Positions 1-48,970 of a stretch of DNA of 64,000 bases are shown here, in pieces. The notes beneath the pieces were generated by a model. It had not been told where the DNA came from and ran no database searches. It saw only the letters and a list, made by a program, of their open reading frames with translations. The stretch is taken from positions 1,021,001 through 1,085,000 of the forward strand of contig JACYXH010000091.1 in the NCBI GenBank assembly GCA_026745465.1. Reading direction: 5' to 3'. Origin of the DNA: Lota lota (lineage: Eukaryota; Chordata; Actinopteri; Gadiformes; Lotidae). Every line of letters starts with the position of its first letter. Positions within the stretch are counted from its first letter, which is position 1. The position numbers and the translations under genes are program-made.

Positions 1-475
1 GACACATCGGAGGACATATAAAAAACGATTGCATTTAATTGTCATGACATGTCTTCAGAACAGGTTCAGCTCAGTAAGAGGCAGACTACTCCGACATCGC
101 GTGCCACTTTGTCTCCCTATATACCCCGTTTGTTTTGATCTGTGTCCAAAAAGACGCGCTAACTGACTAGGCTTCTGGCGGCATGCCAGATCTACGCGCT
201 ACTTTGTTTCGCGCGCTAGCGTTCCAACCAAAGATCACGCAATCGCTCTCCAGTGAAAGTGGTTGCGTGGCTGGTGAACTTGAACACCTGTCAATCATCA
301 TTTTTTATATAACTCAGGGAACGTCATTGCCCATAAGGTAAGGCGCCCAGGAATAAGATGTGGTTGTGGTGTGCATATAGACAGGCAGAAATGTGTTGAA
401 CCAATGTGCGGCAGCATAGCTCCCTAAAAGAGCTGTCATCATGGTGATGGTCGTGTTGTGGTAGAGCTCCCGTAC
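1..475 (-). other. dio1 intron 3 (partial); no exon seen
   Basis: This is minus-strand sequence downstream of the exon 3 donor. I searched both strands for the expected final deiodinase exon and saw none. No other gene or clear repeat is visible. The introns at 686-1096 and 1241-1318 are likewise plain, AT-leaning DNA. Confidence 0.5.
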
Positions 476-685
476 CTTATTGACCACCTTGCCGGCCTGC
501 AGTACATACAGCCTCTCGGGGAGAGGCGGAGGCGTTGCTAATGTTGTCCACCGCCACCGGACAGCGTGGCTCCAGGTCCACCGGACAGCGTGGCTCCAGG
601 TCCACCGGGAGCTGGGCGGCCGTCAGCCTGTCGCCCGGCGTCTGGTGTTGCTTGATGTCCACGTTGTTGGTGAAAGCCCAACCGT
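476..685 (-). pseudogene. dio1: dio1 exon 3, frameshifted, with 24-bp internal duplication
   Basis: The acceptor CCTCAG precedes 685. The exon begins by completing Asp and reads DGWAFTNNVDIKQHQTPGDRL, a DIO1 signature, then the EPRCPV-VDN segment. A 24-bp perfect tandem duplication (554-601) repeats VDLEPRCP in frame, adding eight residues. After VDNISNASA the frame is lost. The conserved LPERLYVLQAGKVV continues in another frame from 523 down, so a deletion not divisible by three lies near 523-545 (about 14 nt, judging from usual family spacing). Read straight through, the frame ends at TAA (479-477), just before an intact-looking donor AAG|GTACGG. The short last coding exon (GPWGYNPEEVR-like in relatives) was not found in 1-475 on either strand and is presumably outside the window. 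Confidence 0.88.
554..601. repeat. 24-bp perfect tandem duplication in dio1 exon 3
   Basis: Two identical adjacent 24-bp units, 554-577 and 578-601, begin CCACCGGACAGCG on the plus strand; a partial third copy (CCACCGG) follows. The insertion is in frame and duplicates eight residues of the deiodinase. Confidence 0.95.
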
Positions 686-1096
686 CTGAGGAGGGACTAT
701 GACTCCAATACGGATATATTCACATTGAAGGTTTCTGGGTTGGATAACACGGCCTAACTTTGTAGGTGTCCCTGAGCAAGATGCGTAAACCCCAATACCT
801 GAAGATAATAGGATTCCCTGTCACTATATTGCGTCTGCTAAGCTAAATAACATAACATAATAATAAAAAATGTATAACGATGTTATGAGATGGAGCTAAA
901 TAGCACAATGATTACCAGACGAATTAATAGTAACCAACCAATACAAGGCAATTTATTTATGTGCAATGGGTGGTTGTCGTTCCTCTATAGCAAAGCTACT
1001 ATATCTATCATCAACAGTCCAAATCAAATAGGCAAAACATTCTAATTATAGAGCAACTATTTTCGACTAACGTTTCCATTGTAATTAAGTAGTTAC

Positions 1097-1240
1097 CAGT
1101 TGAGTGAGCTTCAGCGATGTAGACCACAAGACAGTCTGCCACATCTCTGTAGTCCTTGACAAGTTCCTTGAACTCATCGAGTTTAAACAGAAATGGGGAT
1201 CAGGTACAGCTTCCGAAACTCAGAACAAGTGGTCTGTTTC
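1097..1240 (-). pseudogene. dio1: dio1 exon 2, selenocysteine (active-site) exon, intact
   Basis: This exon has a CTGCAG acceptor before 1240 and a G|GTAACT donor after 1097. It reads, in one frame, GNRPLVLSFGSCTU then SPFLFKLDEFKELVKDY and DVADCLVVYIAEAHST. U is a TGA codon at the position of the catalytic selenocysteine of deiodinases. The usual motif continues PPF or PSF; here it is SPF. The Glu and His of the IAEAH segment, conserved in the thioredoxin-like core of the family, are present. The phase joins exon 1 (G|GA = Gly) and exon 3 (G|AC = Asp) exactly. No disabling change is visible in this exon, in contrast to exons 1 and 3. Decoding TGA as selenocysteine needs a 3'UTR SECIS element, which is not in this window. 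Confidence 0.93.
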
Positions 1241-1318
1241 CTGCAGAGATAAAAGGTTACATTAAGAATGCAATTGGTCAAGACACCAATCACTGACTAG
1301 GTGCGTTAGATCACTAAC

Positions 1319-1654
1319 CATTCAAGTGATTCAGTATGGTTGATGTATTTCCCTCCATGGTTACAACTTGTGAGTCTGGTGCCTCCCAACCCATAAAAGC
1401 TTCTTGACCAAGAGAGAGCCAAATGTGCTGGAGGACAGTTTTGAGGAACGTAAACGACGCAAACGTATAACCCCAATCTTCGAACTTGAATTTGGGATTT
1501 GGGGTCATGGTAACTCGCCCATTTTAAGCACCCATTTTTTGCCCAGAGCTGGCCAAAGCAAAAACCAGGACGCGAATGATGACAACGTGCATAAGACCGC
1601 CGCAGAAAAGACATGCCAGTGAGAGATAAACCCAGTTTTCTTTTTCAAAATCAT
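1319..1654 (-). pseudogene. dio1: dio1 exon 1 (type 1 iodothyronine deiodinase), frameshifted
   Basis: Type 1 deiodinase removes iodine from thyroxine to make active T3; it is a selenoprotein anchored in the membrane by an N-terminal helix. The proposed start is the ATG at 1654-1652. It opens a peptide with a hydrophobic stretch (VFSAAVLCTL then SWFLLWPAL) followed by LKMGE, as in DIO1. After MGE (1522-1514) the frame hits TGA at 1507-1505. The conserved continuation [13 protein letters not shown] resumes in another frame at 1508. The bases GTTACC before that ATG would encode the usual V-T, so about 4 nt appear to be lost near 1509-1516. The rest matches DIO1 closely ([30 protein letters not shown]). 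The exon ends AATG|GTTAGT, one base into a Gly codon. The start codon is less certain than the family assignment. Dio2 and dio3 are excluded by sequence and exon pattern. Confidence 0.85.
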
Positions 1655-5477: not shown

Positions 5478-7611
5478 GAGGAATGATGTTGATGCAAATT
5501 AATATTTAATTTATTTTATTTTATGTTATCTTGTTTGTGTCACTCACAGCCCTCCCTTTGTCACAATGTGGCGTGGCTACATTGTTTAGCAACAGTTTCA
5601 CAACAAGAATGCGTAAATCAAAACAACGTGTAAACACTGTCAATGTAGAAAAACAGGCAAATATTTTATTACAAAAACGAATGAACAAAGAAAAAGTATA
5701 CTTTCCTTGTAATTGTCTCCAACACACATTCTGTCATTAATTGACGGAGAGATAGAATTGGAATTCATAATTTGTTATATATGCAATATATACAGTGCCT
5801 CTTTGTTTGTCTAATTAACATGATATGGTCATTATCTGTATCATAAATTTAAGTAAGATCAGAATCACAGGCAGTCATTTGTTAGACAATAACGCCTACA
5901 TTTTGATGGCTATAGATTTTTATTTATTTGACCTCACGAATCACAACTCTTATATAATTAATTTTAGGGTAATCATGATATTATTCACTTATGTATGGGG
6001 ATACCAATGTAGAAATTTAATTCTCCTTAATTTCCAAAGATCTAATCTGAAAGGAATATATGGACAATTAAAAGAGATTGTAGATATAACCTATGACAAT
6101 ATTGATAATAACACGTTTTGCCCGGTGCAGAGTAAAATATGAACCACAACCTTCCACTTGACCCTACAATTGCAAAACATTGAACATGCTGAGCTAAGAT
6201 AAATCATATGTTGCAAACCATGCCAACTTATACATTTGACAACCATTAGCATACAAGCTACATTTTCAGCAGTGCATAAATTACCTTGAGAACCATTGCC
6301 ATGTGTGTCCCATGCTAATGCTGCTAGCTGGAGGATGATACCGCTTAGCTGGAATAGAGCTAGCAAACAGCATCGTGTGCCAGTGTGTAGTGTGATGATC
6401 TCAGGAGAGACTGTGTCGGGAAGAAGTCAGTGAGTGAGGTTTGAAAGACGGTGAGTGAGCTTGTGAAGTAGTGTGAGTATGCGAGAGTGACTGAGTGAGT
6501 GATTCAAGAGAAGGTTAACAAGAGATTAAACAAGTCACTAGTACCAAGGATGTGCGTGAGGAAGGGAGGTTAAGGGCCCAAGGAGACTAGCTAAGTTAGT
6601 GTAGGAAACTGTATAGGTAAGGATTCATTGGGTTGGCTGTTAATTGGCTGACCGAGTGATGTGAACCAGGGTGAGTGTTGAAAGGCTGTGATGTCATGCC
6701 TCAGTCAGACATGTGGTGAGCTGGAAGGGAGAATGAGTGATGCTGATAGGCTGCAGGAGCTCAACGTTTGACGACTCCCCCATTTTACAGTTTGGATTAA
6801 TAGAACAACAAAGTCCTATCGATCATCTGAAGTATCATGAGTAGAAATCGTATAGTAAAATTAGAAGTACATGTATCAGAATAGTATAATAAGAAGACGT
6901 ATGAGTGGCAAACAAGTACAATTAGAAGTAGTACGTCCATGAGCATAAATATATGTATATTAGAAGTATAAGTATCTGTATGAGTACAAGTATAATTCTA
7001 AGTGCAAGAATAGTACAAGTATAGTAGGTTTATAAGTACAAGTAAAGTAAGAAATTTTACAGCTGGGGGATTCACCTTTAATATACTGGTTTATATGTAG
7101 TCTTGTGTCTACTTCAGCGAAAACACAGTTCGATCATCGGTCCATTATGCTAATAATATCTCTGCCCACCAGCAAAGAAAATATTTAGCTTGCGCGGAGA
7201 CTCTAACGACTTGATACAGAAATGTTTGAATAAGCGCATACTCGCATCATCTGATACCTTCCTAAAGTTGCGTCTGGCACGGGCTGCTGTTGCCTATTGG
7301 AGGGAAAATGTTAAAATTAGAGGAGTGTGCTGGAATCCCACACTCAGTCAGATAAACGTTGGGTTGAGTAATAGACTTTGGAGACAGTCCTGTTGGCTAA
7401 CGTAGTGTCAACATGGCGATGGCTGTTTCCTGTTCATTTTGGTATCCCAAAAAAAATAAAGAACCACAACGTCAATATGGCAATACAGCATTGCAAATGG
7501 CTTCCATGCCATGCTGTGTGGATGTAAGTCTTGTGGAATTTACATACGCAGAAAAACAACAGCCGTGCTAGTATTTAGATGTTTGACCCCCATATGTACG
7601 CACACTTGCAT

Positions 7612-7612
<1 letters not shown>

Positions 7613-7685
<73 letters not shown>

Positions 7686-7710
7686 AGACACAGACACAGA
7701 CACACACACA

Positions 7711-7742
<32 letters not shown>

Positions 7743-7745
7743 TAC
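7613..7745. repeat. (CA)n compound microsatellite
   Basis: A CA run with a GACACA sub-block at 7681-7700 and single TA interruptions. Confidence 0.97.
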
Positions 7746-8049
7746 AACCCTAACATTTTGCTGTGGTATGAAGGCACTCATGTTGAATTCCTGGGTTACC
7801 TGTGTGTTTCCCAGTAGCGTTAATGGGAGTCAGACTATCAGACTGCTGGGCGATAATGACCACTATTATCACAGCCTGCTTTCACACACTACTGTATCAC
7901 AGTCACCCCTAACGACGTGTGACTAGGCCTTAGCTTATTTGAACAAAGTGAAATTTTAATCGTAATGTAATCAAGATAGATTTATAACAGGAAACAACTG
8001 ATTTAACTGAATGCTTTTCTGAACCACCAGATTTAGTCATTTGGCTCAG

Positions 8050-47429: not shown

Positions 47430-47680
47430 CGTTCTCTCTCTTTTTGCTCTCTCATTTGCTTTCTCTCCCTCTTTTTTATCCCTCCCTTTTATCTCTCGCT
47501 CTCTTTTGCTCTCTCTCTCTCTTTTGCTCCCTCTCTCTTGCTCTCTTGCTCAATCTCTCTCTTTTGCCACCTCTCCCATCTCTCTATTTTGTTCTTTCTC
47601 CTTTCTTTTGCTCTCTTCTGTTCTTTTTTTACTCTCTCTTCCAATCTTTCTCCCTCTATCTGTCTCATACACTCTCTCGC
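47430..47680. repeat. CT-rich tract
   Basis: CTCTCTCTTTTGCTC-type words recur; a CA repeat follows at 47688-47725. Confidence 0.9.
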
Positions 47681-47819
47681 ATGCTCACGCACACACACAC
47701 ACACAGACACACAACCAAACACACAGGTCTTGATACCCAGTGCTGTTCTACCATGACAGGCTTAGGTTTCGGCCATATTAGATGGAGCTGCGGTGAATGG
47801 CAGGCCTTGCCTACTGTGT

Positions 47820-47824
47820 CTGTG

Positions 47825-47891
<67 letters not shown>

Positions 47892-47982
47892 ATGTGTGCG
47901 AGTTAGTATGCGTTTGTGTGTATGTGTATGTTGTGTGTGTGTGTGTGTGTGTGTGTGTGCATGTGTGTCTATGAGTGTGGGT

Positions 47983-48071
<89 letters not shown>
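47820..48071. repeat. (TG)n compound microsatellite
   Basis: Two long pure TG blocks (about 47827-47889 and 47990-48071) separated by degenerate TG. Confidence 0.97.
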
Positions 48072-48075
<4 letters not shown>

Positions 48076-48970
48076 AAGGAAGCCAGAGATGAGGCACGAG
48101 TCCTATTAGAGGGCCGGTGTCACTCTCTCCTTGGTCATCCGATCTTCGTCAGCTTCACTAAAGGTCAGGACACACTGTCCTCAGTGATGAGCAGAGTCCG
48201 GTTTGAACTCAGACACCTTTTCACCTTTTGTTTTTCAATTTCATATTTCACAATATACACACAAATTGTTTTTATTTTGTTTTGTTTTATATGCATGACA
48301 TACACTTTTACATTGAGAGATTTAGTTTATTATCTTAACCTACTTCCACCCTTTCCATCTCTATATTACTTTACTTTAGAAAATAACAACCAGGACCAAG
48401 TGAATATTCCATTTTTGGAATATTTACTTCTTTAGATGTTTTTATCATTGTCTTCTTTGCTTTTTCTCTTTTTCTTGCTACTCTCCCACAATCCGTACTA
48501 TATCAACTAAATAACTGAGAAACAGACTCATCCACCCCGTACCCCCCATCTCTTCTACGCACCCCTTCATGACTTCACCGTGTGTGTGTGTGTGTGGTCT
48601 GCGTCTCTGGAAGACCTCTGACTGCTAGCTCTCTAACGCCCCCTGAGTCTGCAGCCCTGCGGGAGGGGCTGACAGCCCAGCCAGTGCCGTACTGCAGAGG
48701 AGCTCTGACACCGGCGTCCTCAGCCCCCATTGTTGTCGCGGCCCTTTGACAGGAGAGACCCGGTATTGATGTCAGCCGAGCCTCACCAAGGAGAGTGCTT
48801 CTGAGTGGCTAAATAGGGCGATCACCTTGTCCAGAGAAGAGGCTACAGTAAACTAGTCACCATAACATCAATAGTTCCTGTAATAGCATGTGTGGTGCAA
48901 TACTGTCACATACGGAAGCACGTTATATCACACAGCCGATAGGACAGCTCTCTATGGCTCTGATGTCCAT

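Follow-up and report, generated by a model that had tools for sequence, protein, structure and literature searches.

The type 1 deiodinase gene (dio1) of Lota lota is very probably a unitary pseudogene. It would represent the original gene, introns included, at its ancestral site between glis1 and ssbp3, with its coding capacity presumably lost through several independent indels and its recognisable SECIS lost as well. The gene carries multiple lesions, has no second copy in the assembly and has ssbp3 as its neighbour, and the paralogues dio2, dio3a and dio3b are open. This reading rests on one assembly; the shifts in exon 1 and the comparison of the SECIS depend in addition on provisional mammalian sequences.

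The window, meaning the whole stretch of 64,000 nucleotides that was analysed, corresponds to C91:1021001-1085000 of an assembly of 575 Mb in 867 contigs. Negative window positions denote contig sequence before the window start. The following features were located:

1654-1319, minus strand: remnant of dio1 exon 1, with an ATG at 1654 and its frame changed three times (near 1636; ~1565 to 1532; at 1513)
1240-1097, minus strand: dio1 exon 2, open frame, with TGA 1202-1200 at the Sec position and Ser directly after Sec
685-476, minus strand: remnant of dio1 exon 3, ~14 nt short and out of frame from about 527-524 on; TAA 480-478 in the exon 2-derived frame
554-608, minus strand: tandem duplication inside dio1 exon 3, perfect 24 nt, 2.3 copies, 100% identical, adding 8 codons in frame
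1..475, minus strand: the part of dio1 intron 3 within the window, with exon 4 and the SECIS remnant beyond the window start
L003 9830-9764 (window -70 to -136, before the window start), minus strand: dio1 exon 4, with a further +1 shift
L003 9497-9476 (before the window start), minus strand: SECIS 5' arm remnant of dio1, TTTATGATGGTTACAGTGCAAA, 267 bases past the stop codon
30099..31709, plus strand: open-frame exon of the gene named glis1 by the earlier note, PF23561 zinc-finger match of 64.8 bits; used as a control, with 1431 nt counted

The gene has four exons on the minus strand, and all three introns show a GT donor and an AG acceptor. The acceptor of intron 3 was picked by alignment, with two AGs lying three bases apart. 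The TGA at 1202-1200 aligned with the active-site residue of mouse D3 (4tr3) and of D2 (9h48). The dio1 pieces matched the deiodinase family PF00837 in order, at family positions 41-98 (23.7 bits), 102-147 (69.9 bits), 149-196 (37.2 bits) and 201-224 (24.2 bits), with two of the four pieces singly above the cut-off of 27 bits. The match to 41-98, under the cut-off when taken alone, covers roughly the last half of exon 1; those to 149-196 and 201-224 sit in different frames, on either side of the exon 3 break. Recognisable stretches include LSFGSCTU, HSTDGWAF and LPERLYVLQAGKVV. Very long CA/TG and CT/GA repeats were also seen in the region, at L003 ~9757-9668 (directly past the dio1 stop codon), at window 7579-7926 and 47665-48102, and at other places.

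Identity as dio1 was assessed over 95 columns of the unbroken part. Identity to human DIO1 (provisional sequence) was 55.8% with a score of 296, compared with 48.4% and 225 for the fish's own dio3b, 46.3% and 217 for dio3a, and 47.4% and 176 for dio2. On these values, the broken gene resembles D1 more than it does D2 or D3. Its surroundings comprise ssbp3, which adjoins dio1 and lies convergent to it (its exons were identified by eye; PF04503, 278.6 bits), and, on the other side, a zinc-finger gene, for which the name glis1 is taken from the earlier note and one exon has a zinc-finger match. We take glis1 and ssbp3 to be the neighbours of dio1 in other vertebrates.

Frameshift-aware alignment to human DIO1 (provisional sequence) placed five shifts in the gene, near 1636, 1562, 1513, 524 and -100, and scored 475 with frameshifts versus 338 without. 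The shifts in exons 3 and 4 were also required in all three alignments to the fish's own paralogues: at window 524 (dio3a), 524 (dio3b) and 518 (dio2) for exon 3, and at window -94 (dio3a), -94 (dio3b) and -97 (dio2) for exon 4. The three exon 1 shifts rest on the provisional human DIO1 sequence, and those in exons 3 and 4 on the own paralogues. Even with the Sec UGA set aside, dio1 has no continuous reading frame, there being five shifts against human DIO1 and two against each paralogue.

Within exon 1, the N-terminal segment VYLSLACLFC...HVVIIRVL, which begins at 1631, is out of frame with the ATG at 1654; in its own frame, no ATG precedes it back to the stop at 1667. Reading from the ATG at 1654 meets a TGA after 49 codons. 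In the first third of this exon, Pfam found no family in either frame; because neither frame could be placed in this way, the frame change there rests on the provisional human DIO1 sequence. The second shift is a +1 change located between ~1565 and the six-A run of GGGCAAAAAATGG (1544-1532). The third is a loss of 4 nt between MGE and VTMTPNP, at 1522-1509. Exon 3 loses its frame at ~527-524, before LPERLYVLQAGKVV, with ~14 nt missing relative to the own dio3b, and alignments to the paralogues and to human DIO1 show inserted residues at its 24-nt duplication. The exon 4 shift is a single extra base. The residue directly after Sec is Pro in all five D2 and D3 proteins compared (own dio2, dio3a and dio3b; 4tr3 and 9h48) and Ser in dio1.

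These results agree with most of what the earlier note had read from the letters: a readable exon 2 with TGA at the Sec position, canonical internal splice sites, and frame losses at MGE/VTMTPNP in exon 1 and before LPERLYVLQAGKVV in exon 3 were all recovered. Its count of two frameshifts was too low; both are real features of the assembly, and two more in exon 1 and one in exon 4 bring the number to five.

Exon 2 and most of the catalytic motifs are well preserved. Over the same stretch of PF00837, dio1 exon 2 scored 70.5 bits, next to 80.0 for dio3b, 72.6 for dio3a and 89.5 for dio2. As exon 2 still reaches 70.5 bits, decay is limited. Five random shifts over 757 nt would leave exon 2 unhit with P = 0.35; its intact state is therefore unremarkable and is no evidence of retained function.

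Downstream of the coding region, TTTATGATGGTTACAGTGCAAA differs at two of 22 positions from the 5' arm of the mammalian DIO1 SECIS (provisional sequence). The best arm match in 60 random 20-kb sequences had 5 to 8 mismatches, and the best elsewhere in the 64-kb window had 4. No 3' arm and GA core were found adjoining this 5' arm. A script requiring NTGA, a stem, an AA or CC loop and a GA core recovered all five of the SECIS elements called by Rfam in the genome, and gave no convincing element in the 2.8 kb from dio1 exon 4 on, where its one candidate (-4.6 kcal/mol) lies away from the remnant. At the flanks of dio2, dio3a and dio3b, the same script gave weak candidates only. RF00031, whose cut-off was passed at only five places in the genome, detected no SECIS downstream of dio1, but also none in the dio2, dio3a and dio3b flanks examined. 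The Rfam scan is therefore not decisive, and the negative SECIS search is weak when taken by itself. A stretch complementary at 9 of 11 positions lies 45 bases past the loop of the arm; in the five control elements the corresponding stretch pairs at 8 to 10 of 11 positions and is 14 to 18 bases away. Pairing alone does not decide for SECIS loss; what speaks for it is the greater distance, together with the absence of a GA core that fits. The SECIS damage is thus a weaker part of the case than the frame damage.

A scan of the whole assembly with PF00837, at E values up to 10, gave seven matches. Two are dio3 loci of a single exon each, two are exons of dio2 and two are pieces of the present dio1, both passing the cut-off; the last, at 13.9 bits, falls short of it. 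No second dio1 was among them, which answers the earlier note's call to look for another intact copy. The own dio2, dio3a and dio3b (on C704, C249 and C479) are PF00837 deiodinases too, 46 to 48% identical to dio1 over the 95 columns and, unlike dio1, with frames open apart from the Sec UGA. For dio2, an additional TGA and TAG from the genome scan lie in the intron before the exon. Within the assembly, dio1 is therefore the only copy, with introns and position kept, and it is disabled, as defines a unitary pseudogene.

Some further observations came from these searches. A DNA search for a second dio1 returned a single other match, 62 bp long and involving part of intron 2 (window 761-821), which is 81% like C115:1271554-1271615 and is perhaps a dispersed repeat. 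One of the two dio3 genes (L006 ~1501-2214) has Ser in place of Thr before Sec (GSCSU). No COX1 match was obtained in the assembly, in which the mitochondrial genome is seemingly not included. The UDG family gave no match either.

Three other explanations of the broken frame were weighed. Shifts in homopolymer runs and single extra bases are typical long-read errors, and the gene offers candidates for both, in the possible shift within the six-A run of GGGCAAAAAATGG and in the extra base of exon 4; a long TG repeat also lies just past the stop codon. That dio1 is intact and its indels are base-calling mistakes is nevertheless highly unlikely. Base calling does not typically produce losses of 4 nt and ~14 nt or a perfect 24-nt duplication, and indel errors have nothing to do with the SECIS damage or with the change from Pro to Ser. 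No frameshift was found in 4,608 control coding nt (dio3b 792, dio3a 777, dio2 795, 1431 from one exon of glis1, and 813 from 13 exons of the neighbouring ssbp3), in line with the earlier note's argument, made from glis1, against a general sequencing-error problem. The probability that all five shifts fall in dio1's 757 nt by chance is 5.6e-5, or 0.02 if only the two paralogue-supported shifts count, a value that leaves some room for chance clustering; the controls are not a blind sample, because they were chosen as stretches reading intact.

Even less probable is a shortened, soluble D1-like protein, whose translation would start at the ATG at 1508 and read past the UGA into the altered end of exon 3. 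The spliced frame from 1508 does run through exons 1 to 3 with a single UGA, in exon 2, before it ends at the TAA at 480, and the catalytic exon is intact. The lack of a convincing SECIS in the 2.8 kb from exon 4 on means, though, that the UGA should be a stop, and the product would be without its membrane anchor and without the domain end (PF00837 from 201). We give an equally slight chance to a segregating loss-of-function haplotype, with an intact allele elsewhere in the species. The evidence does come from one assembly of one individual, but several lesions together with SECIS damage suggest a longer decay than that of one new allele, and the genome scan gave no second dio1 contig.

The unitary pseudogene reading accommodates these features. 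Translation from the ATG at 1654 would end at the stop after 49 codons, and a start at the ATG at 1508 would lead as far as the UGA; without a SECIS, that UGA is an ordinary stop. We infer that the D1 enzyme is absent in this animal and that its loss is tolerated through dio2 and dio3. D1 both activates and inactivates the hormone, and hepatic DIO2 activity is relatively high in teleosts, according to PMC7681243. With this dual role, the high hepatic DIO2 of teleosts and an open dio2, loss of D1 need not end T4 activation. The earlier note's description of dio1 as the T4-activating enzyme was thus right as to D1's activating role and incomplete as to its inactivating one. Judging from the reading frames, the open dio2 and the two open dio3 genes allow both the activation of T4 and inactivation to go on. 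Presumably dio2 was kept for T4 activation and the two dio3 genes for inactivation, and D1's share of both would be missing.

It is likely that this gadiform lineage is permanently without its only dio1 and runs its peripheral thyroid hormone economy on D2 and D3 alone, as a natural D1 knockout. If this is true, a vertebrate can do without D1, and the species offers a natural knockout for asking what D1 is needed for. The loss proposed by the earlier note is supported by the additional lesions, the damaged SECIS, the lack of a second copy and the clean controls; that it is recent is a possibility only. PMC10706248 lists dio1 among the genes with differential expression in Atlantic cod. This listing, which is by gene name only, is a hint, though no proof, that some gadiforms still have the gene.

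With vertebrate dio1 in general, the Lota lota gene has in common the four exons, the canonical splice sites, the UGA in exon 2, the flanking glis1 and ssbp3, and the stretches LSFGSCTU, HSTDGWAF and LPERLYVLQAGKVV. It differs in being frame-broken in exons 1, 3 and 4, in a SECIS that is not recognisable as a whole, and in the Ser after Sec.

In a 2012 survey of 44 genomes, Dio1 was among the 21 selenoproteins present in all vertebrates (PMC3316567). Among the matches listed in our literature search, which covered titles on dio1 or deiodinases and left the newer vertebrate selenoproteome survey of Tico and Mariotti outside its scope, there was no report of dio1 loss in a fish. The mammalian selenoprotein pseudogenes described in PMC3316567 likewise show frameshifts, or a SECIS without GA, beside a recognisable coding region. 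Those pseudogenes are additional copies, whereas the Lota lota dio1 is the only copy found and has kept its introns.

The case is a new one of lineage-specific gene loss, a known kind of event. In Gadiformes, mhc II and cd4 are reported to be absent and mhc I to be expanded (PMC9795746), and PMC3440568 also describes gadiform losses of mhc II and cd4. In the present assembly, at least 100 PF00129 exon matches to MHC I were counted, mostly clustered on C654, C823 and C169. For MHC II beta, PF00969 gave no matches in the genome and none in the control genomes either, so that this count is without a positive control. Together the two counts resemble a gadiform immune gene set and make the genome a probable gadiform one. 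Like dio1, the mhc II and cd4 genes lost in this order, as PMC9795746 and PMC3440568 describe them, are otherwise widespread among vertebrates. Those losses concern immunity, whereas that of dio1 concerns thyroid hormone metabolism; if true, it would extend the list of vertebrate genes lost in gadiforms to the endocrine system.
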